Program-made: the position numbers and the translations under genes | From: an uncultured Flavobacteriaceae bacterium | GTDB taxonomy: Bacteria > Bacteroidota > Bacteroidia > Flavobacteriales > Flavobacteriaceae | Assembly: GCA_947489085.1 (NCBI GenBank) | Contig: CANLCJ010000029.1 | Span: 1-50,115, forward strand | Direction: 5' to 3' | Length of the DNA stretch: 50,115 nt | Shown: piece after piece, positions 2,127-34,691 of the stretch | Layout of the letters: the number at the start of each line of letters is the position of its first letter | Position numbering within the stretch: the first letter of the stretch is position 1 | The notes under the pieces: generated by a model | Told to the model about the DNA's origin: nothing | Database searches by the model: none | What the model saw: only the letters and a program-made list of their open reading frames with translations

Positions 2127-5100
2127 TTATTTGATTAATTCTTGATGTCTACGTTTCGCTAAATTCATAATTTCCACACTCAATTTAGCGTGTAATTTGG
2201 ATACTTTATCTACATCGTTAAAGGATATTAAGTCTTCTACTTCTCCTTGTAACTTTCTAATTTCGGCAGGTCTACCTCCCCAAAAATTAGGTTTATTTAT
2301 TGCGTCTTGTAAAAGAAGAACCAATTCGCTTGTTAATTCTTTTAAGACTTCTTTTTCCTCTTCTGTTATTTCTTCTTCTTTAAAGGCACTAAAAATAATA
2401 AAATCGTAAAATGGTAATTCTTGTGCATCTAAACCTTCCTCTTCATTTTCGCCTTGTCTTCCTTTGGCTAAATCTTCTCTTACTTTCTCGAATTCTTCTA
2501 CAATAGCATCCCAATTTCCTTGGTAACGCTCTAAAATTTCTTCCATACGTTTTAAAAAACGTTTGTACAAGGCTGGATCTTTATTAATATTCACTTTTAT
2601 ATGACGTCTAATCGCATGCTCCATTTCTGATGCCTTTGATTTTGAGTTTTTACCCAATTTATCTACTTCTTTTGCAAAATCTTTAGACAATAAACTTACA
2701 GGAGCAATACGACTGTCAATACCCAAGGTTTTCAGGTGCGCATCAATCATTTTACGAACTTTAGGTTTTGCCCATTTTAAGTCCATACTTGGGTCTTTAT
2801 AGCGGTTTTTAATACGCACCAATAAATATCCAAAACGTTTGGCAGGTATGTAATATTTCCTTGCAGCTTCTGAATTGAATAACAAATCTAAACTATCAAA
2901 AAAAGCTTTAATGTAGGTATCAAACTGTGCTCTAAACGGAATGGATTCTGCTAAAGCAATACAGTCTTCTGCCAGTTGAAACTCTGCATCTTTATCTGGC
3001 ATTCGCTGTTCTGCAAACTTTTGAAACTCTGAAATTCCTTTATCTGTAAATAGTTGTAGCATCCTATTGTAACGTGCTTCAAGTACAGGGATTTCTTTAT
3101 TTATATCTCTAAAATATGCCAATAATTCTTTAATATCTTCCTCATCTTCTGCGCCCCAAATATTTAAGGCATCTTTTAAGTGATTAGAAACGCCATAATA
3201 ATCTACTAGAATACCATGTGTTTTATCCTTTTTAGTTCGGTTTACACGTGCTATGGCTTGTAATAAATCATGCTCTCTAATGCTTTTATCTAAGTACATC
3301 ACTTGTGCTATTGGCGCATCAAAACCTGTTAATAGTTTATCACAAACACAAAGAAAAGCGACACCCGTTTCTGGTTTTAAGTAATTACCTTCTTCATCGG
3401 TACTATAATCAAAATCTTTTTTAAAGCTATCTACCGCTTTAATTTCTTTGGCATTTTTACGTGCTTCACTTATAAATGCTTGTTCATTATTATCTTGCTT
3501 GGTAACTACTGTACCTATTTTTATAAACTCAATTTTTTTAATTAAATCTATGTCTGGTTCTGGTTTGTTTCTTTCTAATGCTGCGCGTTCTTTTAATGCT
3601 TCTGTTATTAAAAACTGATAACGTGCTGCTGCCAAAACGGAACTTCCTACCACCATCGCTTTAAAACCATTTGGTAAAATATCATCTACATAATGTTTTA
3701 CTAAATCTTTAGCAATTTTTCGTAAACGCTCCATGTTTTCCAAATAGGCTTGCATGGTACCGTAACGTTTTTGTATTTCCTCTTTTTCTTCTTTGTTTTG
3801 TTTTTTAAAAACATCTTCAAATTCGGCATCAAAAGCTTCTTTAGATTTTATTTTGTCATTAGTCGTTTTTCCAATGTAAATAATATCTAAGGTAGCTCTA
3901 TCATCTACCGCTTCCCTAATTTTATAGGTGTCAATAAATTCACCCGTCCCACCGAAACGTTCGTGTGTTTTTTGCTTATGCCTATCGGTTAATAAGGGTG
4001 TTCCTGTAAAGGCTATTTTTGTAGCTTGCGGAAAAGCGGTAAATAAATTATCTCCCATATCGCCACCTTGTGTTCTATGGGCTTCATCAATTAGAATCAC
4101 AATTCTGTCTGATGTATTTACCACGTCAAAAGGCTTAAATTCTGGCACTTTTCCTTCTTCTACAAAGGCCTTCATTAAGGCTTTAGAGTGCTTTAATTCT
4201 TCTTGTACAAATTTATGTACCATAACCATGTTTAAGTTAGAGGCATTACCGCTTAACTTTGGCACAAGTTCTTTACGAGAACCTACAATATTAGCTTCTT
4301 TAAATTCATTAGTTAATCGTGCAGTGGCAGAGAGTTGTTTTTCTAAATCTTTACGGTCTACCATCATGATCACCTTATAATCTTTGAGGTCTTCTTGCGA
4401 ACGTAGTTTTCTAACTAAAAACACCATAGTTAAAGATTTACCAGAACCTTGTGTATGCCAAACCACACCAGAACGCGTTTTTCCCGACGTTTCATTACGC
4501 ATTCTGTCGAGTATTTTACCTACCGCTCTAAATTGCTGATAACGACAAACCACTTTAATTTCGATGCCTTCCTTTATTTCCATGAATAAAGTGAAGTGTT
4601 GTAAAATATCTAATAGAATTTCTTTATTTAAAATGCCTTTTATTAATACTTCTTGGCGTACTCTTGGGTCGTTTTGCAAGCCGTTGTTTTGATACCTAAG
4701 CGTTTCCTCTTCTACATAATTTACGGTATCTATGTTTTTATATACTTCTGGAAAAATATCTTTCCAATTTAAATAATATTCAAAATCGCCAGAGATAGAA
4801 CCCACTCGTGCTTCTTCGCCATGGGTAGCAATACTAAACAGATTGTAATGAAACAAACGCTCTTCGCCATCGGTAAAACCAAAATCATCGCCACGTGTGT
4901 TGGCATAACGCATAATTTGCTCTACCGCACTAGAAATTGGGTCTGCCACATCCACATCTTTACATTCTACAACAGAAAACGGCAAGCCATTTACAAACAA
5001 TACAATGTCTGGAATAATAGCATGTCTAGCAGTACCTGGTGTATCTACGCGAAACTGATTAATGGCTACAAAATGGTTGCTATCCCAGTTTTTAAAATCT

Positions 5101-5471
5101 ATGAGTTTTACTAATGGGTTTTCTTCTCCGGTAACTTCATTTTTTGCCACCGTGGTTTTGGTAACACCTATTAATTTCTCAAAGACTTGTTTGTTGGCTT
5201 CTAATAAAGATAGATTGGCTTTTTCGGCAGCAATGGTTTCGTTGTATAGGTCTTCTAATTGCTTATCGGTTAACCATGCAACCCCATCTACTACATTTAT
5301 TTTTTTAATTGCTTTTTTAAATTCTTGTTTAAGGGTAACTTCTTTAAAGCTGGCACGTAAACTTATAGCAGGATCTTGCGGAATACCAAAGCTACCTTGG
5401 TCTATAATGCGCCAATTAAGGTCTCTTAATTTCTCTAAAAAGGGTTTTTCTACGTTGGTATATTCTGCCAT
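2127..5471 (-). CDS. hsdR: Type I restriction endonuclease subunit R
   Basis: This is the ATP-dependent translocase and nuclease subunit of a type I restriction system. With the start at 5471 (MAEYTNVEKPFLEKL) it is 1114 residues long, a normal HsdR length. That start leaves 5 nt after the upstream gene; the longer start at 5504 would overlap it by 28 nt. The N-terminal nuclease shows PDIVLFVNGLPFSVVECK (Asp155, Glu169, Lys171) with a following QxxxY-like EQIMRY. The SF2 helicase core shows QGSGKS (342-346), DEAHR, FTGTP and QAIARVNR. A C-terminal helical region follows. All key motifs appear intact. It acts with the HsdM and HsdS proteins encoded upstream. Confidence 0.96.
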   Translation of the reverse strand: MAEYTNVEKPFLEKLRDLNWRIIDQGSFGIPQDPAISLRASFKEVTLKQEFKKAIKKINVVDGVAWLTDKQLEDLYNETIAAEKANLSLLEANKQVFEKLIGVTKTTVAKNEVTGEENPLVKLIDFKNWDSNHFVAINQFRVDTPGTARHAIIPDIVLFVNGLPFSVVECKDVDVADPISSAVEQIMRYANTRGDDFGFTDGEERLFHYNLFSIATHGEEARVGSISGDFEYYLNWKDIFPEVYKNIDTVNYVEEETLRYQNNGLQNDPRVRQEVLIKGILNKEILLDILQHFTLFMEIKEGIEIKVVCRYQQFRAVGKILDRMRNETSGKTRSGVVWHTQGSGKSLTMVFLVRKLRSQEDLKDYKVIMMVDRKDLEKQLSATARLTNEFKEANIVGSRKELVPKLSGNASNLNMVMVHKFVQEELKHSKALMKAFVEEGKVPEFKPFDVVNTSDRIVILIDEAHRTQGGDMGDNLFTAFPQATKIAFTGTPLLTDRHKQKTHERFGGTGEFIDTYKIREAVDDRATLDIIYIGKTTNDKIKSKEAFDAEFEDVFKKQNKEEKEEIQKRYGTMQAYLENMERLRKIAKDLVKHYVDDILPNGFKAMVVGSSVLAAARYQFLITEALKERAALERNKPEPDIDLIKKIEFIKIGTVVTKQDNNEQAFISEARKNAKEIKAVDSFKKDFDYSTDEEGNYLKPETGVAFLCVCDKLLTGFDAPIAQVMYLDKSIREHDLLQAIARVNRTKKDKTHGILVDYYGVSNHLKDALNIWGAEDEEDIKELLAYFRDINKEIPVLEARYNRMLQLFTDKGISEFQKFAEQRMPDKDAEFQLAEDCIALAESIPFRAQFDTYIKAFFDSLDLLFNSEAARKYYIPAKRFGYLLVRIKNRYKDPSMDLKWAKPKVRKMIDAHLKTLGIDSRIAPVSLLSKDFAKEVDKLGKNSKSKASEMEHAIRRHIKVNINKDPALYKRFLKRMEEILERYQGNWDAIVEEFEKVREDLAKGRQGENEEEGLDAQELPFYDFIIFSAFKEEEITEEEKEVLKELTSELVLLLQDAINKPNFWGGRPAEIRKLQGEVEDLISFNDVDKVSKLHAKLSVEIMNLAKRRHQELIK

Positions 5472-5476
5472 GTTGC

Positions 5477-7321
5477 TTAATCTTGTAAAGGTTCTATTTT
5501 CCAAATATCTGCTGCCAATTCTAATAACATGTTTTGCCTGTCATTAATTTGTTTAGCGGTCCATTCATTTCCAAAAGGTATTAATTTTGAGTTAATACGT
5601 GTAATAGAAGTATTTACACCAACTTGATTCAGTTCGCATAAACTACTTGTTAAGTAATATTTACTCATTTTATATTGCTCTTTTTTATCGTTGAAAAAGT
5701 CACGACCTGCAACAATATTTATTGGCTTTTCTAACAGTGTAAGGTTCCCTAGTTTTACTTTATATTGATGATAATCTTTATCCTGATTATCAATATGATT
5801 ATTAAATGCATGTAATAATTCGTCGTTAGGCGTATTTGGTAAAATATGCTCAATTTCTAAATTTGTGTAGTCGTTTAAATTATCTGCACTTGGTAATCCT
5901 TTGTAAGCCCTATTTACATGCTGTGTAAATTTGGCAAGAATATATCGTGTTCTATATTGTTGTAAAGAATAAAAATGATAACGCCTTAAAGCATCGGTAA
6001 ATTCTGGTTGTTTATTATTTGTACTCTTTTGAAAACGATTTATAATAAAATTGTTTAACTGCTCTTTTTGTGTATTGTAATCTGTGATATTAGAAATAGT
6101 ACGCAACTCATCTGCCCAGGCAGAAAAATTACGTTCTAAAACCTTTGTAGAGGTTCTTGTTACTATAAAGTAAAATAAAAAGGTTTCTAACTGTTTTAAT
6201 AAATAATCAAACAAATCTTTTGGTAAATTATAAGATGCTAAAAGCAAAATGTAATGCAAACTAAAACCACCACCAGTAAGCTTTCTTATATTATTCATGT
6301 AGACGTTATCTTCGCTATCATTTCCTTTTCCTCTAGTTAATTTTAGAAAATTATCAACCGTTTTAATAATTTTTCTAACAAATACAAAAGGTTCTTTTTG
6401 GTAGTTACTAGCCGTTATATTTTCTTTTTTAGAAAACCAATCGTAAATTTCGTCTTCTCTAACAATACCATCACTTCTATGGTTTGTTATATTGTAATTT
6501 GCCATTAAAAAATAACGTAAAAAACGCAATGGTTTTTCTTTATTTTCTTCTAACGGATTGGTTATTTTTTTCCATTCGTTTTTAAGTTTGGTAAACTCGT
6601 CTAGCTTCACGTTAGTAAACAATAGGTTTTTTAATAAATCCATAGGATTTAAACCTATACCACGCTCGTTAATGGTTTCAAAAATCTTTAACGCACTATT
6701 AACATCTGTTGATATTTGAATAAATACCACGTTGTTAGATAAATTACCCCAATATTTTTTAAGTGTTCCTGTTTCTTGATAATTAAATTTTAGGTACTGG
6801 TAAATAGTTGTGTAGGCATTTATAATATTTTCTAAAGCTCCAAATTGCGACACACCTGCTGCATTTAGCAATGCTTTAATAGTTTCTGGCTCATTACCCG
6901 ATTTTATAATGGCTATAATTACCTCTTCTGCATTTTCGTATTTAGGGTTTAACTTTAAACTGGTACTAATTTCGCCATCGCTATCTGTAAAGCTTGTACT
7001 TATTAAGTTGCTTAAAATTGCCTCTTGTGGCTCACCTTTAAACAAGGCTTTTAGTGCACAAAGCATTAAAAAAAATGTAGTTAAACGTTGTTGCCCATCT
7101 ATAACATCAAACTGTTTTTTATGTTGGGTTGGTGATACTAAAATAGTGCCAATAAAATACTCACTAGCAGAACCACTCTCTATTTCGTTATTTAAATCGT
7201 CTAGTAATTTATTTACTTCCTTATCACTCCATACATACTCGCGTTGGTAATCTGGAACGATATAGAAACAATCGTTAAAAGCTTCTTCTATGGTAAATTT
7301 ATGGTTTTCTATTTTAGACAT
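5477..7321 (-). CDS. DUF262/DUF1524 protein, GmrSD-like nuclease
   Basis: The protein is 614 residues long. The N-terminal DUF262 (ParB/Srx-like) domain has the VIDGQQRL motif (Asp75-Arg79), which in the GmrS-type half binds or hydrolyses NTP. The C-terminal DUF1524 domain has an HNH-type EIEHILP near residue 480 and the usual LGNLTLLEKPIN followed by FNDKKEQY. The combination is that of single-chain GmrSD type IV restriction enzymes that attack modified DNA. It sits between hsdS (26-nt gap) and hsdR (5-nt gap) on the same strand, so it is co-transcribed. Whether it targets modified phage DNA or serves the type I complex cannot be read from sequence. Confidence 0.9.
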   Translation of the reverse strand: MSKIENHKFTIEEAFNDCFYIVPDYQREYVWSDKEVNKLLDDLNNEIESGSASEYFIGTILVSPTQHKKQFDVIDGQQRLTTFFLMLCALKALFKGEPQEAILSNLISTSFTDSDGEISTSLKLNPKYENAEEVIIAIIKSGNEPETIKALLNAAGVSQFGALENIINAYTTIYQYLKFNYQETGTLKKYWGNLSNNVVFIQISTDVNSALKIFETINERGIGLNPMDLLKNLLFTNVKLDEFTKLKNEWKKITNPLEENKEKPLRFLRYFLMANYNITNHRSDGIVREDEIYDWFSKKENITASNYQKEPFVFVRKIIKTVDNFLKLTRGKGNDSEDNVYMNNIRKLTGGGFSLHYILLLASYNLPKDLFDYLLKQLETFLFYFIVTRTSTKVLERNFSAWADELRTISNITDYNTQKEQLNNFIINRFQKSTNNKQPEFTDALRRYHFYSLQQYRTRYILAKFTQHVNRAYKGLPSADNLNDYTNLEIEHILPNTPNDELLHAFNNHIDNQDKDYHQYKVKLGNLTLLEKPINIVAGRDFFNDKKEQYKMSKYYLTSSLCELNQVGVNTSITRINSKLIPFGNEWTAKQINDRQNMLLELAADIWKIEPLQD

Positions 7322-7347
7322 TTCAATATTCTATTTTACTTTATTTT

Positions 7348-8616
7348 CTAATCTACACTCACGGCAACCTTACCCGTTAACAAATCTTGCAGTAAACCTG
7401 CTTTTAGTTGTTGGTATTTGGCTAAGGCTTGTTGTTCGGTTTGGATTTTTGATTCAACAGCTTTCAACTTTTCAATAATTATCCTTTGTTCATCAATTTT
7501 AGGCAAAGTAATATTGAACCCTAAAACATCTGAACCAGGTAAATTACCAAGAGTTCCTTGTCTAACATATTTGTTAACCAATCGTTTTGCTTTATCAGTT
7601 TGCATAAAAAACTTAATGAAATATGGTTCAATTTCTTCATTAAATCTAAATTTCACAGAATATGCACTTGGTATAAATTGAAAGTCTTGTTCTTCAAAGA
7701 CCGCTGTTAAACCACAATCTGCTGTTGTAACCATTACAACATCACCTGTTTCTAATAAATGTGAATAAACTTTTGATTTAGGAAGTAACGCAATTGGTGC
7801 TTGACTATATAAAATTTCACCATCTTTTGAAAAATCCATTCCACGAATAGTCTTTACATTTCCTTCTGAATCATAATCATCACCACTAAATCTTGGTCCA
7901 TATAAGTTTTTGATTAGATGATTTTTGAATACAGAATCTTCCCACTCCCTAGGAATCAAACCCAAGGCACTTTCTTTATACAAGTCTGGTGCGTCTTGTG
8001 GTGTTGGGCGCAGTTTCCCTGTGTTTACATCGATACCACGTGTAAACAAATCGTGCATTAAGCCTTGTTTTATGGCTTGGTATTTGGCAATAGCGCTTTC
8101 GGTTTTTTCTATAACCGCATCTACTGTTGATAGGATTTTGGCTATTTTTTTTTGTGTTTTTAAATTACTAGGAAAGTTAATGTTAACTGAATTAATATCT
8201 TTTAAAGAAACTCCTTTTACAGTAGATCCAACAGATTTAGATTTAAACTTAGTATTCAAAAAACTTAATAGAATCAAAAAGAATGATAAATCAAGTTCAT
8301 TATTTGGATAGAAAGCTTTCAAATCCTGATTGATTGCGACAGCATAAGGGCTTACCGCCACTCTCCCAACAGCCATTCTCGTACACATTATAGGTATTCC
8401 AGAAGGAATAAGATTTGCTGAACTATTTCTTAATCCATCTTCCGAAATGTAATCTTGAGTTTCTTTTAAAATGTAATTATCATCCTCAAAATCCTTCACA
8501 CTTGCCCATGGGATTTTTCCATTCCAATATTTTTCAATCTTTTTAGAAGGAGTTCCTCCTCCAATAATTTTATCTAAAAAATCGGTTAGCTCACCTGATT
8601 TCCAACTACTTTCCAT
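7348..8616 (-). CDS. hsdS: Type I restriction specificity subunit S
   Basis: The protein is 422 residues long, with two target-recognition domains (about residues 5-160 and 220-375). Each is followed by a conserved helical repeat. The first repeat is [34 protein letters not shown] (about 160-195) and the second is [34 protein letters not shown] near the C-terminus. This two-half layout is that of a full-length HsdS recognising a bipartite site. It overlaps the end of hsdM by 11 nt, indicating coupled translation. No inverted second hsdS or recombinase is visible, so phase variation is not indicated. Confidence 0.95.
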
Positions 8617-11173
8617 AACCCAATTCCATTAAAAAGTTATTTAATTGGGAAGCTGCTTCTTCTCTACTATCTAAAATATTGACCAAAGTATTTTGGTATT
8701 TGGTATAGCGTGTTTCTAGTTCGGTAATTAAAGCATGTTCGTAACGGTTTACGTAATCCATTACGGTATGGTGCAACACGGCTTTAAAACGTGAAAGTAT
8801 TAAGGCTTTGGCTTCGTTTGGGGTTATTTTTTCGCGTGCTTTGGCGACTAAATCTTCTTTTTTGGCTTTTATTTCGGCAATGGTGGCTTTGCAGGTTTTT
8901 AGCTCGTTGGTGAGCGCTGTGTGTTTGGCTAGTTGTTGCTCTATAGTAGCCTTTTTGGTTTCGGCTTGGGTTTGGGTGTTTTGTTTTTGGTTTAGCTCTT
9001 GTGTTAATGCTGTGGCATCATCATTGGCTTTAATTCTAATTTTTAAGGCTTTTATGTCTTTTTTTAGCTCACGAATATCTGCATTGTAGGTTTTAATATT
9101 GTCTTTTAATTCTTTTAGTACTTCTTTTGGGAATACTTCGTAGTTCTCTTCGTCAAACTCGCCTTCCTCTAGTTCGTTGACTTCGTTAAAAAGGGCTTCT
9201 AACTCGTCGCGTCTGGCTTCGTTTGTAGCTAGTTCTTCTAATACTTCTGGGAATTGCGATTGTAGAATATCGTCTGCAGGAATTAATTCTGCATTCCAAC
9301 CACTAGCGGCTATTGATTTTAAATCGGTTTCTAAAACATCCCAATAGGCAGCAAATGCACCTCTACTTTTGTGTAGGTCTAATATCCCTAAGGCACTAAA
9401 ATCGTTAGCAATACTCACAGCGAAATCACGGTATAAGTCATACACATTTTTCTGTTCTGGTAAAGCTTCTAGTTTGGGTACATTGTGGGTCCACCAGTCG
9501 TTTACGCCATTTGTATATGCTTTGCGTTTATTATAAATATCTTCATGCGCTAAAACCAGCGTTTTTAAATCTTCTTTTGCGTCAATTAATTTTTTAAATT
9601 GATGATACCCTGCTTTTTTTGATTCCTCAAAAATTGAAGTTCTTAATGCTGTGTAGTTATTCCAGTATGGTTGTAACTCATCAACTTCTACCGTTGGGAT
9701 TCCACCATGCAAATGCGCATTTACATCTTGTGGTTCGGCAGGCGGACTGTTATCTACATATCTACGGATATTAAAATTGTAGTCTTCTTTTTCTAAATCG
9801 GCTTTAGAAATCTTTCTGGCATAGCCTTCTAAATTCTCTTTGTTTTTATAGATGTAGCTGATTTTGGCAATATCTTCTGGACGCAGTTTATTTTGGTTTT
9901 TGCCTTCTTTATACTCTCTATCGGCATTAATAAACAATACCTGGTTACGTTGCGCAGCACCTTTTTTATTGATGATTAATACAGAAGCAGGAATACCTGT
10001 ACCATAAAACAAACCAGATGGCAAACCAACCACAGCTTCTAATAAACCACGATCTACCAACCATTGGCGCATGCTTTTTTCTTCGCTACCTCTAAACAAC
10101 ACCCCATGTGGCATTACTACAGCCATACGACCATTATCTTTTAACACAGATACCATATGTTGCACAAACATAAAGTCGGCTTTTTTCTTTTTAGGCATCC
10201 AGTAATGGAAACGGTCACGAAAGTTTTTAATATCGCTATAATTGGCAGAAAACGGCGGATTGGCAATAACAATGTCGAAACGTTTTAACTCTCCGTTTTC
10301 TACGTGTAAAGGATTGGCAATGGTATCGCCTTGTAGAATTTCAGCATCAAAAATATCATGAAACAGCATATTCATTTTACACAAAGACCAAGTGGTGCCG
10401 CTTAATTCTTGACCAGCAAAACTTAAACGAGATGCATCGCCATAACGTGCTTCTACATAGTTTTTGTTTTCAATTAGCATACCACCAGAACCGCAGGTTG
10501 GGTCGTAAATAGACGATTCTTCTTCGGGTTCTAACAGCGTTACTAATAATTTTACCACTTCGTTAGGTGTATAGAATTCGCCACCTTTTTTACCCGCACT
10601 ATCAGCAAAATATTTTATTAAATATTCGTAGGCAGTACCTAAAAGGTCTGGAAACTCAAAACGGTCGTCGGTTAGCGTTACTTTATTAAAATGGGTGATG
10701 AACTCTATTAGTTTTTCATCACTTAAGGCGTTTTTGTTTTTACCAATGGTACGGTTAAAGTTTACATTGGTTAAAACTCCAGATAACTTATCTGGGTTTT
10801 CTTCTTCTAAGGCTTCTAAGGCTTTGTTCAAATGATCACCTACATCTTTTTTAAGATGAAGTATTCCATCGTTAACCTCTTGTCCTGCTTCGTTGGTCGT
10901 TTTGTAATTCCAACGTGCACGCTTTGGCACAAAATATTGGTAAGCGTTTGCACGCTCTAATGCTTGGTTTATTTTTTCTTCAGAAAGTCCTTTGTCTTGT
11001 AGTTCTTTCAAACGAGCTGCACGATCTTGCTCGTACTTATCGCTCAAACGTTTTAAGAATAACATTCCGAAAATGTATTCTTTAAACTCTGAGGCATCCA
11101 TGTTACCTCTTAGTATATCGCAGGCATCCATAAGGAAGCCTTCTAGCCATGACAGCGTTAGTTTTTTGTTCAT
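8606..11173 (-). CDS. hsdM: Type I DNA methyltransferase subunit M with long C-terminal extension
   Basis: This is the adenine-N6 methyltransferase subunit. The HsdM_N helical domain (about 8-170) is followed by the catalytic domain with SAM motif [10 protein letters not shown] (224-233) and catalytic NPPF (305-308). At 855 residues it is about 300 longer than common HsdM proteins. The extra C-terminal part (about 540-855) contains a long charged helical stretch likely to form a coiled coil (about 690-790, rich in Lys, Glu, Ala and Gln). It starts 55 nt after the hipT stop, with only a weak AT hairpin between, so read-through from the toxin-antitoxin operon is possible. Confidence 0.95.
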
Positions 11174-30200: not shown

Positions 30201-30275
30201 GGCGAGGTAGCTCAGTTGGTTAGAGCGTCGGATTCATAACCCGGAGGTCACGAGTTCAAATCTCGTTCTCGCTAC
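30201..30275 (+). tRNA. tRNA-Met (anticodon CAT)
   Basis: The cloverleaf is complete: acceptor GGCGAGG with TCTCGCT, D-arm GCTCAGTTGGTTAGAGC, anticodon loop TTCATAA (CAT) and T-arm ACGAG-TTCAAAT-CTCGT. CCA is not encoded. The anticodon stem lacks the GGG/CCC pairs of initiator tRNA, so elongator Met is likely; a lysidine-modified Ile tRNA with CAT cannot be ruled out by eye. Confidence 0.95.
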
Positions 30276-30286
30276 AAAACAAGATC

Positions 30287-30318
30287 AAAAAAAAGCGGTT
30301 TTACACCGCTTTTTTTTG
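30287..30318. terminator. Bidirectional terminator
   Basis: AAGCGGT (30293-30299) pairs with ACCGCTT (30305-30311), flanked by A-run and T-run on the two sides. It serves tRNA-Met on the plus strand and the LodB-like gene on the minus strand. Confidence 0.88.
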
Positions 30319-30360: not shown

Positions 30361-31524
30361 TCATATCTGTACCACTTCCACTCCAGCCCTATTCTTAATA
30401 TATTGTTTCCAATAAGGCTCACTCTGGTATCTCAATTCTCTTGTATAAAAATACTTTCTAGAATTTTGATTTGCTGTAAACACACGCTCTATTTTTTGTT
30501 GGTAATCTCGTTTAACGCGTTCGCGTTCTTCTTGAAAATTATTCGACAAACAATTGGAAATAGCTTCTGCCCCTCTTATGCCACTGTACAAACCAAAAAA
30601 CAATCCTTGAGAAGAAATAGGGTCTAACGACAAAGCTGCATCTCCTACTGCCAACCAAGATTGTCCAATAACTTGTTTGCTTAACGCCGTTTCTGCATTA
30701 CAAGCCTTTACCTCTGCTATAAGAAATTCGGTATTAACAGTATGTTTTAAAATTGCACTTAAGTTAATTGCAGAGATAAATTCATTGGGTACTTTTACCA
30801 TTTGTTTGATAACATCAGGCAGTCCGTAAAACGCAATGACCCTAGAATGATCTGGAAGTCTTGCTGTATACCACCAACCATTACGTACAGATTTTATGCG
30901 CGTAGTGTGCGCTGTATCTACTCTAACATTAGGTTTTAACCACGCTACAGCTGCAAGTTGTGTTTGAAACTTTTGGCGAGGTATTCGAAATTGTTTTAAC
31001 ACTGCAGTGGCGCGACCTGTAGCATCTACTACCCATTTGGTGTGTAAGACTCTGGGGAGATGGGGTGCTTTTGTCTTAAAACCAATTGTGTAATTGCCAT
31101 ACATTTCATTTTCAATAGTATTGGGCGTTATTTTTCCTATTTTACCTTTGTAAAACACAACACCTTGCTTCTGGGCTAAGTTTTGTAATGCGGCATCAAA
31201 CTTATGCCGTAAAATATGCCATCCTCCTGTTTCTGGATTTCTAATAGCATCGTTATACGTCCAATATTCTGTGCCCCAGGCTGAAACATTAGCAGTACAA
31301 GCACTATAGTCTACTACATCTAGCAAATCACTTAAGTTAGAAATACCTAAACGACGTAATAACCGTAAGCTGGCACCAGGTAGTGATTCTCCAACTTTGA
31401 GTGCGCTACCAGCTACTGTATCTATTAAACATACCGATAAATCAAGTTGCCGTAATCGAATAGCAGCTGCACAACCCGAAGGTCCTGCACCTGCTATAAC
31501 AACATCAAATATTGGCACTGCCAT
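30361..31524 (-). CDS. LodB-like FAD-dependent oxidoreductase
   Basis: The 387-residue flavoprotein has an N-terminal FAD-binding VVIAGAGPSGCAAAIRLRQ and a second FAD motif WLAVGDAALSLDPISSQGLFFGLYSG. LKVGESLPGASLRLLRRLG matches the VGESLP signature of LodB and tryptophan-halogenase-like monooxygenases. Its start overlaps the stop of the LodA-type gene by 1 nt (TAATG). In the known lodAB system LodB is required to make the cysteine tryptophylquinone of LodA in the cytoplasm, and that is the expected role here. No conserved Lys-rich halogenase WxWxIP motif is visible. Confidence 0.9.
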   Translation of the reverse strand: MAVPIFDVVIAGAGPSGCAAAIRLRQLDLSVCLIDTVAGSALKVGESLPGASLRLLRRLGISNLSDLLDVVDYSACTANVSAWGTEYWTYNDAIRNPETGGWHILRHKFDAALQNLAQKQGVVFYKGKIGKITPNTIENEMYGNYTIGFKTKAPHLPRVLHTKWVVDATGRATAVLKQFRIPRQKFQTQLAAVAWLKPNVRVDTAHTTRIKSVRNGWWYTARLPDHSRVIAFYGLPDVIKQMVKVPNEFISAINLSAILKHTVNTEFLIAEVKACNAETALSKQVIGQSWLAVGDAALSLDPISSQGLFFGLYSGIRGAEAISNCLSNNFQEERERVKRDYQQKIERVFTANQNSRKYFYTRELRYQSEPYWKQYIKNRAGVEVVQI

Positions 31525-34500
31525 TAGTTACCTCTACGCTTAATAGTAGCAAATTCGTTGCGTTGTTCTTCACTAAACCATCCTGCTTCTGTAAGAGCCT
31601 TATCGGTATCATTCATATCTCCATAATTTTCTAAGAATAACTTGTGTGCTTTATTCAATTCCGCAGCCTTTACTTCAGAAAGGTTTTCAACATATATATG
31701 TTCTGGCATCCATTCAAAACCTTTATCGTGTCGGGGAGATGGCATTGCTTCTACAATTCCCATATCTCCAAAATGTTCTATCATATAAATCATTTGTTCA
31801 GCTACAGGGTTTGCTCCTGGTAATTGTCGTAACCAACTCGGCCTGTTATGGAAAGCTGCTATACGTTCTTCGTAAGGTTTCGACTTGTCCATAAGCGTAT
31901 CGTAATCAATACGGGTTAATACTTGATTAGGCACACGTGCTGGCCAGAAAGTAGGCAAGTACGGGTCGTACTCCATATCGTATCCTGAGCGACAAAACGC
32001 TGTATCGCCTTGCCATGGCACAGCCATCCAACGGGTTAAATCTCCTGGGCCTTGATCGTATAAAGGGCCATTCATTGCCATAACCTGAGTTGTGGTAAGG
32101 TTAGAACCATATGTAGGATCGGTTTTTCCTTCTGCACGCATTCTAATACGGTAAGGTGCACGATACATGGAGGCATTACGCATTGGCCATGTTAACTCCG
32201 CTCCCGGATGGAAGGCATCTGCGATACAAAAATGCATATTGGCTGCATCTAAAGCTTGGGGTTGGTCTTGTAAATCGATCTTATCGAGTGTTGTTTGTAA
32301 TTCTTCCTCTGGTTTATAATCGCTAATAAAATTACCTTCTACCCAAGCAGATAAAATATAGTCGTAAAATGCTGGCAGTTGCAAATAGGTACTTGCAGAT
32401 GGTGCTACTGAGGGATCTGGATTGGTATACCCAAATGCATCTCCATAAATCCAAGGCCAAGCACCTTCTTCTACAGATTTTACATCCTTAGCTCTAAAAC
32501 TATTGTAAATAGTGCGTCTTAACTCTCCGTAAGGATCGGGATACGTCATACTAATTGGTGCTGTAGCTAATTTTTTAAGTAGTGCTTTATCTGTAAAATT
32601 CATTGGAGCTCCAGCACCAAACATAGATAAGAAGCCTTTATTAACCCATTGCAACTCACTTAATCGAGTTAAAATGGGCTGGACGTGTTTTTTAAACGAC
32701 ACGCGTTTTGGCAAGTCTTGCATACCAGATGTTATATATACGTTCTGCATTAAATCGTTCATACTACGCCAGCTTACAATATCTGGTGCATAATTGGGGG
32801 GTGCAGAGGCAACCCAAGCGGGGTCTGCAATAAAATCTTTTGTACCAATAGTTACTTTAGCCTTAACAGGTCCATCGGCAATATCGTCATACCACCCTGC
32901 TGGATTATTAAAAGTACTAGGGTTTTCTGGATCGAATACAGGTGTATTTGCAGGGCTTGCAGAAACTCCAAAGCCAGGTAAAAATAGTAAACGCCCAACA
33001 GCATCTGTACGCAGTTGCCCTAGCATTACGGGAGTACCTTGAAAATTACCCTTAAGGTTATAACTGGAATCGTTCATGTTAATACCCATAATTTTCTTTT
33101 CGCCAGGGTCTATGGCTAAAGCAGAACGGTCGCTTCCTTTTATGTCGGGGTTTCGTAATGGCACTTTTAAACTTACTGTAGCAGGAATATCCATTGCCGC
33201 ATCAAACTCATACCATGCCGATTTTTTATTGGCAACATGTACGGCCCATTCTACTTGTGTGTTCTTAGATTGCTGTATTTCTGCAACAATGTTGCCGTTT
33301 TTATCGTAACCGTACACTCTAAACCTAGCCGCTTGGCGCTTTATAGCTCCTGTTTTATCTCTTGTACTGCCAAATGCTGTGGGTTCTGGGTGAGATACTT
33401 CTGGGCCTATATAAAAATCTTTAGTACTGTTTCCTACTCGGGCAATACCTATGCCTGGATGTATTCGTACTTCTGTAATGGCATCTATTTGCGCTTGCGT
33501 TAAGGCTTTGGGTTGTTCTTCTTCTGGTCTAGGTACAACTCCACTAAAGGGACATTTAGGGTTTTTAATTACGGGGGTTCCTGGAGCTTGAGGTTCTTCA
33601 ACAGGTTGCTCGTTTTTGGCCCGTCTGTAATTTGCGCTTGCTTGATAAACTCGAACGCGTGCTTGAGCGACACTACTTTCTTTTGCTGGCTTATTGGCTT
33701 CTGGTGTTCGCCCAATGTTAAATGCCAACCAATCGCCATAAGTCTCCCGTTCTTTTTTTGTAATGTCTTGCTTTTTTAAATTTATGGTAGCTACTTTTAC
33801 AGGCACGGCCTCTTTTTCATCCCAAACCACTGTTGCTTTATCTAAAGGATAGCACTCATCTATATAAGCTTGGCTAAATCCATCTTTTGGTGTTGGACGT
33901 TTTTGGATATATATATCTAAAGTAGCAGCTCCTTTCGCCATACGTCCTGCTAAATCTTTAGCCAAAAAATTAGGATCATTAATATCTGGTTCTTCAAAAA
34001 AAGTAGAAGTTCCAGGACGTAATATGTATTTACAGAATCCATCACCTAATTTAAAAGGTACTACGCTCCATAAGGAGGTATCGAAAACCGAACGAATCGG
34101 TTTTGCCATACCATCTAACAACTGGTTTGTATTGGGCGCGTTTTCTTGTATCCATTCATTACTCCAACCTTCAAAACTGGCTTTGGTAAAGTTGCACATA
34201 TCTGCAGCTGTATCGACAAAAAAGTTCGGAACGTTTTGCAACAGAAGATCTGCTGTTTTAGACGATTTGGCTTTTTTTCCTTTGGCGTAAGGTTCTGTAC
34301 TATCTACGTTAAAAATTTTAATGCCAATGCCTATAGTGCTTTTCCAATCAGGTCTGCCATCAGCAAGATCAGACGAGTATCTTACATATACAGGATGCTT
34401 AGCAGGCTTTTCAAATAAGCCGTGTTTATAATCTTCGGGAACTTTATCCTCTAAAATACTAAGCTCTCCTTCTAATATACCATGTGTACGTAAAAACACA

Positions 34501-34691
34501 GGGCGTCTTGCTGGGCACTGCCCTTCCATTACAACACGACGCTCTTGCGTCATAATACAAAACATGTGTTCTAAGCATGCTATGGGGTCGTTACAACTGC
34601 AAGTTGAGTCATAATATTTGGCATCTTTTGGTGCGAGATCCGTCGCTTTTTTACCGTCTTTTCTTGGTTGGTCATTATAAAGACTTTTCAT
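31524..34691 (-). CDS. Catalase-like domain fused to LodA/GoxA-type quinoprotein oxidase
   Basis: The 1055-residue protein has two domains. Residues about 35-360 resemble catalase-family hemoproteins, with FLRTHGILEGELSI supplying the distal His70 and ARVRVYQASANYRRAKN supplying an RxxxY motif with the proximal Tyr349. A Pro/Glu-rich linker (about 361-400) follows. Residues about 401-1055 are a LodA/GoxA amino-acid oxidase domain: EVRIHPGIGIARVGNSTKDFYIGPE, FCIADAFHPGAELTWPMR with Cys822 and GDLTRWMAVPWQGD with Trp893, the candidate pair for cysteine tryptophylquinone. There is no signal peptide. LodA enzymes oxidise an amino acid and release H2O2, so the fused catalase-like domain may consume it. 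The substrate is unknown. Confidence 0.88.
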   Translation of the reverse strand: MKSLYNDQPRKDGKKATDLAPKDAKYYDSTCSCNDPIACLEHMFCIMTQERRVVMEGQCPARRPVFLRTHGILEGELSILEDKVPEDYKHGLFEKPAKHPVYVRYSSDLADGRPDWKSTIGIGIKIFNVDSTEPYAKGKKAKSSKTADLLLQNVPNFFVDTAADMCNFTKASFEGWSNEWIQENAPNTNQLLDGMAKPIRSVFDTSLWSVVPFKLGDGFCKYILRPGTSTFFEEPDINDPNFLAKDLAGRMAKGAATLDIYIQKRPTPKDGFSQAYIDECYPLDKATVVWDEKEAVPVKVATINLKKQDITKKERETYGDWLAFNIGRTPEANKPAKESSVAQARVRVYQASANYRRAKNEQPVEEPQAPGTPVIKNPKCPFSGVVPRPEEEQPKALTQAQIDAITEVRIHPGIGIARVGNSTKDFYIGPEVSHPEPTAFGSTRDKTGAIKRQAARFRVYGYDKNGNIVAEIQQSKNTQVEWAVHVANKKSAWYEFDAAMDIPATVSLKVPLRNPDIKGSDRSALAIDPGEKKIMGINMNDSSYNLKGNFQGTPVMLGQLRTDAVGRLLFLPGFGVSASPANTPVFDPENPSTFNNPAGWYDDIADGPVKAKVTIGTKDFIADPAWVASAPPNYAPDIVSWRSMNDLMQNVYITSGMQDLPKRVSFKKHVQPILTRLSELQWVNKGFLSMFGAGAPMNFTDKALLKKLATAPISMTYPDPYGELRRTIYNSFRAKDVKSVEEGAWPWIYGDAFGYTNPDPSVAPSASTYLQLPAFYDYILSAWVEGNFISDYKPEEELQTTLDKIDLQDQPQALDAANMHFCIADAFHPGAELTWPMRNASMYRAPYRIRMRAEGKTDPTYGSNLTTTQVMAMNGPLYDQGPGDLTRWMAVPWQGDTAFCRSGYDMEYDPYLPTFWPARVPNQVLTRIDYDTLMDKSKPYEERIAAFHNRPSWLRQLPGANPVAEQMIYMIEHFGDMGIVEAMPSPRHDKGFEWMPEHIYVENLSEVKAAELNKAHKLFLENYGDMNDTDKALTEAGWFSEEQRNEFATIKRRGN

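Follow-up and report, generated by a model that had tools for sequence, protein, structure and literature searches.

A catalase-fold domain fused to a LodA/GoxA-type quinoprotein, with a LodB-like maturase gene, in an uncultured Flavobacteriaceae bacterium

Quinoprotein oxidases of the LodA type release hydrogen peroxide and carry a cysteine tryptophylquinone (CTQ) cofactor, the formation of which requires LodB (PMC4417212, PMC4699246); likewise, LodA and GoxA need LodB or GoxB, respectively, to acquire CTQ (PMC7876137). A survey of the family (Campillo-Brocal 2015, PMC4417212) gives in its Table 3 a set of 21 proteins, 963-1072 amino acids (aa) long and all from group III, then uncharacterised, in which a catalase-like domain (pfam00199/cd08152) precedes the LodA part; LodA-like proteins without such a domain exist as well. 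The subject of the present analysis is a cassette of this kind, found in a stretch of 50,115 nucleotides from an uncultured Flavobacteriaceae bacterium (contig CANLCJ010000029.1 of assembly GCA_947489085.1, called the window in what follows). It consists of a gene for a 1055-aa fusion protein and of a gene for a 387-aa LodB-like flavoprotein. In architecture and in length the window protein falls among the group III proteins of the survey, one of which, that of Tenacibaculum ovolyticum DSM 18103 (1061 aa), is, judging by strain, scaffold name and length, the protein of locus L084 in our own set (1061 aa, with a LodB-like gene). The window protein is homologous to it and belongs to a clade about 39% identical to the branch of L084. 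The obvious assumption about such a protein, i.e. that the attached catalase domain is there to remove peroxide, is probably wrong, because the alignments indicate that the distal dyad of catalases is replaced in every fusion examined that has these columns, and that the heme-binding columns are invariant.

The catalase-fold domain and its heme pocket

A previous reading of this DNA, made from its letters and a list of its open reading frames (ORFs) and hereafter called the sequence-only reading, had proposed a catalase-family segment at the N-terminus of the fusion. When the N-terminal domain was used as a single sequence, there was no Pfam match of note (PF00199 was unmatched by the window protein), and the only structure found in the PDB was 3e4w, with an E-value of 0.14. 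A profile of 75 relatives, 48 of which match PF00199 at an E-value of 0.01, found 3e4w at 1.8e-8, catalase 4qol at 4.4e-6 and the coral allene oxide synthase (AOS) 1u5u at 1.6e-4. The AlphaFold2 model built for residues 1-375 reaches a mean predicted local distance difference test score (pLDDT) of 86.8 and a predicted template modelling score (pTM) of 0.87; submitted to Foldseek, it gave 3e4y as the best match (E-value 1.8e-13, probability 1.00), together with many catalases near 1e-12 and with chanoclavine synthase 9jdc (1.8e-11). Alignment to catalases with hhalign, using a catalase template of 11 rows, two of them short wrong frames, reached a probability of 96.3 and an E-value of 1.5e-9. 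Finally, the domain matches in tblastn the ‘catalase’ gene of pNGR234a (E-value 8e-16, 26% identity), presumably y4iL, after which cd08152 is named, although the record does not print that name. For comparison, phmmer searches of the PDB found no match for the pNGR234a protein and only 1u5u (E-value 0.022) for a separate catalase-like protein of Leucothrix. Model, structure comparison and profile search thus concur in assigning the N-terminal domain to the catalase fold, of the y4iL type, and on this point the sequence-only reading was right.

The residues of the heme pocket were assigned from alignments. The sequence-only reading had taken His70 as the distal histidine, but the HMMER profile, hhalign and MAFFT L-INS-i all place the catalase histidine on Phe66, and His70 was rejected for that role; in a single weak phmmer alignment (E-value 0.68), between a relative that is not fused to LodA and 1si8, the catalase histidine falls on the first histidine of the relative. 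In catalases the motif reads R-V-V-H-A-K-G, most of the non-fused relatives have R-x-x-H-x-K-x-H-G, and the fusions have R63-x-V-F66-x-R/K-x-H70-G. Column 66, which presumably corresponds to His75 of bovine catalase, holds Phe in 81/81 fusions having the column (one of the 82 is gapped there), while it holds His in 36 of the 39 non-fused relatives (Asn in two, Gln in one) and in 6/6 aligned catalases. The catalases of these column counts are six (L125, L127, L129, L130, L131 and L134) of the 11 loci over the cut-off; all 11 fetched catalases carry the His and Asn pair by motif. Seven of the 82 fusions, broken or cut (L051, L059, L060, L063, L074, L120 and L121), are absent from the alignments and kept in the residue counts. 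As for column 152, which we assume to be that of the catalytic distal Asn of catalases, it is Gln in 81/81 fusions and Asn in 6/6 aligned catalases, and it varies among the 39 non-fused relatives (Phe 13, Val 11, Ile 7, others 8, including one Asn). His70 itself is invariant in the fusions; its column carries His in 34 of the 39 non-fused relatives, and the aligned catalases have T, S or W there.

The heme-binding side of the pocket looks very different. R63, R345, Y349 and R356 are invariant in 81/81 fusions and R104 in 82/82, and all five are equally invariant in the 39 non-fused relatives and in the six catalases. Tyr349, within the RxxxY motif, had been proposed as the heme ligand by the sequence-only reading, and the column counts bear this out. 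Since Tyr349 and four arginines are invariant, heme binding is probably retained. As judged from the alignments, then, the classical catalase dyad is lost and the heme-binding Tyr and Arg columns are kept, so that the pocket should be described by Phe66 and Gln152 in place of His70. In a column table comparing fusions, non-fused relatives and catalases, F66 and Q152 come out as fusion-specific; many fusion-specific and nearly invariant positions (S107, D108, Q152, M165, F168 and T169) lie near the pocket columns in sequence. Outside the fusions, three y4iL-type proteins not fused to LodA (L169, L176 and L179) have Asn or Gln at the distal His column, possibly through independent losses.

The quinoprotein domain and the LodB-like maturase

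The LodA-type domain spans residues 406-1055 of the fusion. LodA_N (249.8 bits, cut-off 26.3) and LodA_C (125.9 bits, cut-off 25) both score above their Pfam cut-offs, within residues 411-916. The more specific NCBIfam models remain below their equivalog cut-offs, GoxA with 398.6 bits instead of 750 and LodA with 180.4 instead of 600; for that reason, the C-terminal part is, by these scores, a member of the LodA/GoxA family that is neither LodA (lysine 6-oxidase) nor GoxA (glycine oxidase) proper. The adjoining flavoprotein matches NCBIfam LodB at an E-value of 1.4e-61 with 208.6 bits, again below the equivalog cut-off (400), hence ‘LodB-like’ is the right label. A full-length model of the fusion (mean pLDDT 78.2, pTM 0.63) found GoxA 6uc1 (E-value 6e-27) and LodA 3weu (E-value 3.6e-24) in Foldseek, the alignments to GoxA and LodA structures having 19-24% identity. 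The assignment as a LodA/GoxA-type oxidase with a LodB-like maturase, made already in the sequence-only reading, is therefore well supported by domain matches and model.

The same cannot be said of the CTQ residues, for which Cys822 and Trp893 had been put forward. In LodA, CTQ is built from Cys516 and Trp581 (PMC4417212). The phmmer alignment of the window protein to 3weu ends with residue 900 on LodA residue 516. In the alignment to GoxA, Asp678, the residue mutated in 6ubr and 6ufq, pairs with Asp896, and the GoxA Cys four residues further on pairs with Cys900; the residue changed in 6vl7 (H583C) pairs with His828. Trp916 pairs with a GoxA Trp located 15 residues after the Cys that matches Cys900, which we take to be the CTQ tryptophan of GoxA. 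Among the fusions having the column, Cys900, Trp916 and Asp896 are each invariant in 80/80, and His828 in 81/81. The CTQ cysteine is thus Cys900 by alignment, and the tryptophan is probably Trp916, with less certainty than for the cysteine; the quinone site should accordingly be described by Cys900 and Trp916 with Asp896 and His828, in place of Cys822 and Trp893. Of the two residues given up, Cys822 has no Cys partner in the GoxA alignment and Trp893 pairs with a GoxA Trp that lies before the Asp; both are nonetheless invariant in the fusions (81/81 and 80/80, respectively).

Distribution, linkage and genomic setting

The cassette was searched for in genome contigs by means of peptide patterns derived from fused proteins, and the best 80 of 99 loci were read. 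At all 80, the catalase-fold and LodA parts are found in one ORF or in its broken pieces, a figure which, given the origin of the patterns, is not a frequency. A LodB-like gene lies beside the fusion at 78 of the 80 loci, and the other two (L120 and L121) end at the contig end. The same type of pattern applied to viral sequences, a scan that detects only contigs bearing fusion-derived patterns, yielded one contig, L122. This is a 38-kb IMG/VR contig with the whole cassette (4920-9974) beside genes that are phage-lysis-like from their translations (a glucosaminidase-type endolysin and an Rz-like protein), and the cassette may be there either as prophage cargo or as part of a host stretch.

The N-terminal domain was matched in 58 records among 72,556 plasmids, 12 of which were examined. 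In one (L123, H1) a LodA/GoxA-family oxidase is annotated across the fused gene, two (L148 and L149, i.e. H2 and H3) carry broken copies of the fusion, and in the nine others (H8, H9, H11-H13, H16, H18, H21 and H27) the domain is not fused to LodA; in H27 it runs on into a ‘peroxidase family protein’. Plasmid loci L124 and L140-L147 gave no match to LodA or LodB. LodA_C is present in 12 genomes of a 299-genome sample of the window's family and in 10 of a 395-genome sample of its phylum, the two samples overlapping, and its matches lie in frames of at least 1055 aa in 3 of 14 and 8 of 12 cases, respectively. A less biased sample was taken from another phylum, that of G703 (the genome of L102): 53 of its 398 genomes match the N-domain profile at an E-value of 0.001. 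Thirty-one loci from this sample comprise 28 that are not fused to LodA, one fused (L162), one split (L163) and one set aside (L159, where the best frame is the neighbouring fusion gene). Two of them are not independent of the earlier set, namely L155, which is the own fusion of the genome of L102, and L162, which is the record of L076 once more (branch length 0 to it). No LodA or LodB match was found at the other 28, non-fused loci.

The split arrangement was met in one genome of this sample (G1044; L191, 3566-9108), where, as neighbouring genes, a LodA-like protein of 796 aa, a LodB-like protein of 367 aa and a separate catalase-fold protein of 635 aa, of the Phe type and with a C-terminal part of unknown kind, are encoded on one strand within 5.6 kb. 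From this spacing the three genes are presumably one operon, and the gene set supports a coupling of the parts, i.e. a partnership that is not a mere accident of fusion. A quick tree of 81 sequences places every one of the 38 fused or split domains on one side of a branch with a value of 99 in the Shimodaira-Hasegawa-like approximate likelihood ratio test (SH-aLRT); this tree has several long branches, and the grouping of the other relatives is itself poorly supported (23). The two parts of the fusion also diverge in parallel: distances between catalase-fold domains correlate with those between LodA domains with r 0.98 for 72 proteins, and with r 0.86 and 0.93 within two clades; for LodA and LodB distances, r is 0.93. 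Ten fusions are omitted from this comparison, the seven broken or cut ones and L061, L092 and L122. In the tree, the catalase-fold domains of a Limnohabitans metagenome-assembled genome (MAG; L056) and of Flavobacterium sp. H122 (L050) are nearly identical (branches of 0.024 and 0.027), which is likely to reflect misbinning in the MAG.

A third gene conserved next to the cassette was looked for, and the idea was dropped: the recurring families are mostly confined to one genus or generic (two-component regulators at 7 loci, ABC ATPase at 6). The exception is a family with the motif FHQWSWQKFLW, near the cassette at six Tenacibaculum and two Pseudoalteromonas loci (among them L118 6467-7867 and L084 12472-13980), the L118 member of which has no Pfam match. 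Directly upstream of the fusion of Spirosoma oryzae (L064 4334-7456) are a ferritin-like protein (PF12902, E-value 3.2e-66), which we take to be of the VioB type, and a protein of 663 aa that matches no Pfam family; as this is a single case among 82 compared loci, a link to VioB-type ferritin-like proteins was not retained. In Flavobacterium branchiicola (L062 12350-16980), the cassette has beside it a second, divergent protein whose match to LodA_C is weak (E-value 5.9e-5, just under the cut-off), along with a tryptophan-halogenase-like flavoprotein and a radical SAM protein; together these may be a different set for quinone maturation. Lastly, a probably secreted protein of 133 aa precedes the cassette at two Bizionia loci (L042 6775-7176 and L063 6674-7075) and at one other Flavobacteriaceae locus (L043 7498-7899); its L042 member has no Pfam match.

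The features of the window locus are collected in Table 1. The single uninterrupted ORF of the fusion, its overlap with the downstream gene and the Pro/Glu-rich linker between the domains, all announced by the sequence-only reading, are as described there. Three terminator-like sites were found between 30000 and 36000, as compared with a mean of 4.3 in shuffled sequences, so such sites are not enriched; the hairpin adjoining lodB has the longest stem of the three. Nine relatives from the same genus match the window up to the tRNA-Met gene, and none does so past about 30301, where 10 to 16 kb of relative sequence are present beyond that point; the sole exception is a second tRNA-like match in the relative L208. 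Of the 12 genomes of the genus, one contains the cassette. The stretch to the right of tRNA-Met thus looks like a variable site next to a tRNA gene. Elsewhere in the window (2127-11173) there is a type I restriction-modification set, with an HsdR-like protein of 1125 aa and an HsdM-like protein of 855 aa, and a GmrSD-type nuclease gene in between.

Table 1. Coordinates of the cassette, of its domains and key codons, and of adjoining features in the window
Feature	Position	Strand	Basis or remark
Fusion gene, 1055 aa: catalase-fold domain and LodA/GoxA-type quinoprotein	31524..34691	-	ORF, domain searches, models, Foldseek
LodB-like flavoprotein maturase, 387 aa	30361..31524	-	1-nt overlap with fusion gene; domain matches
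Catalase-fold (y4iL-type) heme-binding-like domain, about residues 28-365	33597..34610	-	AlphaFold2, Foldseek, PDB profile search, tblastn
Phe66 codon, catalase distal His column	34494..34496	-	HMMER, hhalign, MAFFT; F in 81/81
His70 codon, second His typical of y4iL-type proteins	34482..34484	-	Not the distal His column
Tyr349 codon, column of the proximal heme ligand (RxxxY)	33645..33647	-	Column counts
Pro/Glu-rich linker, residues 366-405	33477..33596	-	Residues 379-390 with pLDDT <50
LodA_N (PF17990), residues 411-627	32811..33461	-	Pfam, E-value 3.7e-74
LodA_C (PF18417), residues 767-916	31944..32393	-	Pfam, E-value 1.4e-36
Cys900 codon, CTQ cysteine as aligned to Cys516 of LodA	31992..31994	-	Alignments; C in 80/80
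Trp916 codon, likely CTQ tryptophan	31944..31946	-	GoxA alignment; W in 80/80
Terminator-like hairpin, 14 pairs with T-rich tail, directly 3' of lodB	30286..30318	-	Hairpin scan
tRNA-Met (CAT)	30201..30275	+	Synteny with nine genus relatives stops here

Possible roles of the heme domain and comparison with known systems

The vague question of why a catalase should be fused to an oxidase can now be sharpened: how does a heme with a Tyr ligand and with Phe and Gln in its distal pocket deal with the peroxide that is made alongside? The best explanation overall, which we hold tentatively and would rate a little short of an even chance, is that of an oxidase and maturase cassette whose heme domain uses peroxide rather than disposing of it. 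The two genes would make up a self-contained unit of a large oxidase and its maturase, the LodB-like protein building the CTQ cofactor. The C-terminal domain would oxidise an amine or an amino acid, with release of H2O2, ammonia and an imine, aldehyde or keto product. The N-terminal domain would bind heme b, be a poor catalase, and more likely spend the peroxide on a peroxidase- or peroxygenase-like conversion of the product of the oxidase or of another substrate, an organic substrate instead of a distal His helping O-O cleavage. Such a peroxide-dependent second step would seem the most economical use of the domain, and its logic has precedents in the coral AOS-lipoxygenase (LOX) fusion and in the RebO/RebD pair. 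It had already been considered in the sequence-only reading next to the disposal of the enzyme's own peroxide; it would be the better version of that idea, whereas the disposal part fits poorly with a Phe in the column of the distal His and a Gln in that of the Asn. A narrower proposal can be made, and we regard it as doubtful: the domain would be a substrate-gated heme peroxygenase or peroxidase, in which Phe and Gln in place of His and Asn stop the waste of H2O2 by dismutation and which, as part of the same joint claim, reacts only with a carboxylate- or imine-bearing quinoprotein product in the heme pocket. If true, one polypeptide would couple a protein-derived quinone with a heme in a two-step oxidation, as a relay of two cofactors that serves the metabolism of amines or amino acids in several phyla; no record of such a quinone-heme relay was found in the literature searched.

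Several observations weigh against the best explanation. A LodA-like relative without the N-terminal domain is found at L022 (650 aa, 38% identical, no N-domain profile match in 19 kb), so the oxidase can do without it. The invariant His70, four residues off, might reach the pocket and stand in for the lost His. The distal His is also missing in 3/39 relatives not fused to LodA, and column 152 is something other than Asn in 38/39 of these, which means that the Asn change alone says little. On the side of the quinone, residues 824-832 and 900-922 of the full-length model, i.e. the CTQ region, have pLDDT values below 50, and the model consequently shows no Cys-Trp contact.

That both distal catalytic residues are gone and the heme-binding columns retained could also mean that the domain is not catalytic at all, its heme having a structural, oligomerising or ligand-sensing (O2, NO or peroxide) role by which the oxidase is regulated or positioned. 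We consider this unlikely, although it comes next in probability after the peroxide-using explanation. The existence of LodA-like relatives without the domain, both at L022 and in the survey (PMC4417212), is in its favour, but the fusion-specific S107, D108, Q152, M165, F168 and T169 would suggest a specific active site, with the proviso that a sensor could need them too.

Somewhat less probable still is the earlier proposal of self-protection, in which the domain would be a catalase or peroxidase destroying the H2O2 of the oxidase. It can draw on the catalase fold with its conserved heme-binding columns, on the closest fold being that of the 33-kDa catalase-related protein of Mycobacterium avium, and on the window genome, which has no PF00199 match at an E-value of 1. 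This genome, with its one LodA_C match, does however contain a protein of a peroxidase family, a 756-aa frame with two PF00141 matches (G000:C47:8146-9999) that we read as KatG-like. Catalases need the distal His for catalase activity, and with Phe in 81/81 fusions at that column and Gln in 81/81 at the Asn column, an ordinary catalase function of the domain appears unlikely.

It is very improbable that the heme domain helps to build CTQ: a LodB-like gene is beside the fusion at 78/80 loci, and we know of no catalase-fold domain in LodA or GoxA. The precedent for this idea is the di-heme protein MauG in the biogenesis of tryptophan tryptophylquinone, but LodA and GoxA get their CTQ via LodB or GoxB (PMC7876137). 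As to an artefact of assembly or gene calling, the chance is practically nil and no supporting point was found, since the ORF is intact with no frameshift that would separate two proteins, and the same fusion recurs at 80/80 scanned loci, in an annotated plasmid record and in the 21 examples of Table 3 of the survey (PMC4417212): the fusion architecture is real.

How does the window protein compare with what has been described? With GoxA (6byw) and LodA (3weu/2ymw) it has in common the way its C-terminal part folds, along with conserved positions of Cys, Asp and His, and the matches to these two cover the LodA part only; to our knowledge, neither known structure carries a catalase-fold domain. 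The N-terminal domain is homologous to y4iL of Sinorhizobium fredii NGR234 and to ‘catalase family proteins’, with the motifs R..(H/F).K.HG and RxxxY..R in common, whereas 36 of the 39 relatives without a fused LodA part have the distal His. The M. avium paratuberculosis protein (3e4w/3e4y), the top match both by structure and by profile, is unfused in the solved entry (320 residues), and its distal-His region is outside the alignments made here. In the coral AOS-LOX, a catalase-fold heme domain is N-terminal to an oxidase domain and uses the peroxide of its partner; unlike the fusions, it keeps the distal H67 and N137, its peroxide is an organic hydroperoxide and its partner a lipoxygenase (PMC5617202). 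One enzyme of the AOS-LOX type breaks down H2O2, with a kcat of 303 per second (PMC5617202). The pairs RebO/RebD and StaO/StaD, in which an amino-acid oxidase hands an imine to a heme-containing chromopyrrolic acid synthase, are a functional analogy: they are separate proteins with a flavin oxidase (PMC10851217). No biochemical study of a catalase-domain/LodA fusion was found in the literature searched, and the loss of the distal His is not mentioned in the consulted portion of the survey (PMC4417212), most subscription literature being outside the reach of the search. The fusion architecture is thus an already published one, to which the window protein adds a member, with a corrected reading of the active sites as suggested by the alignments.

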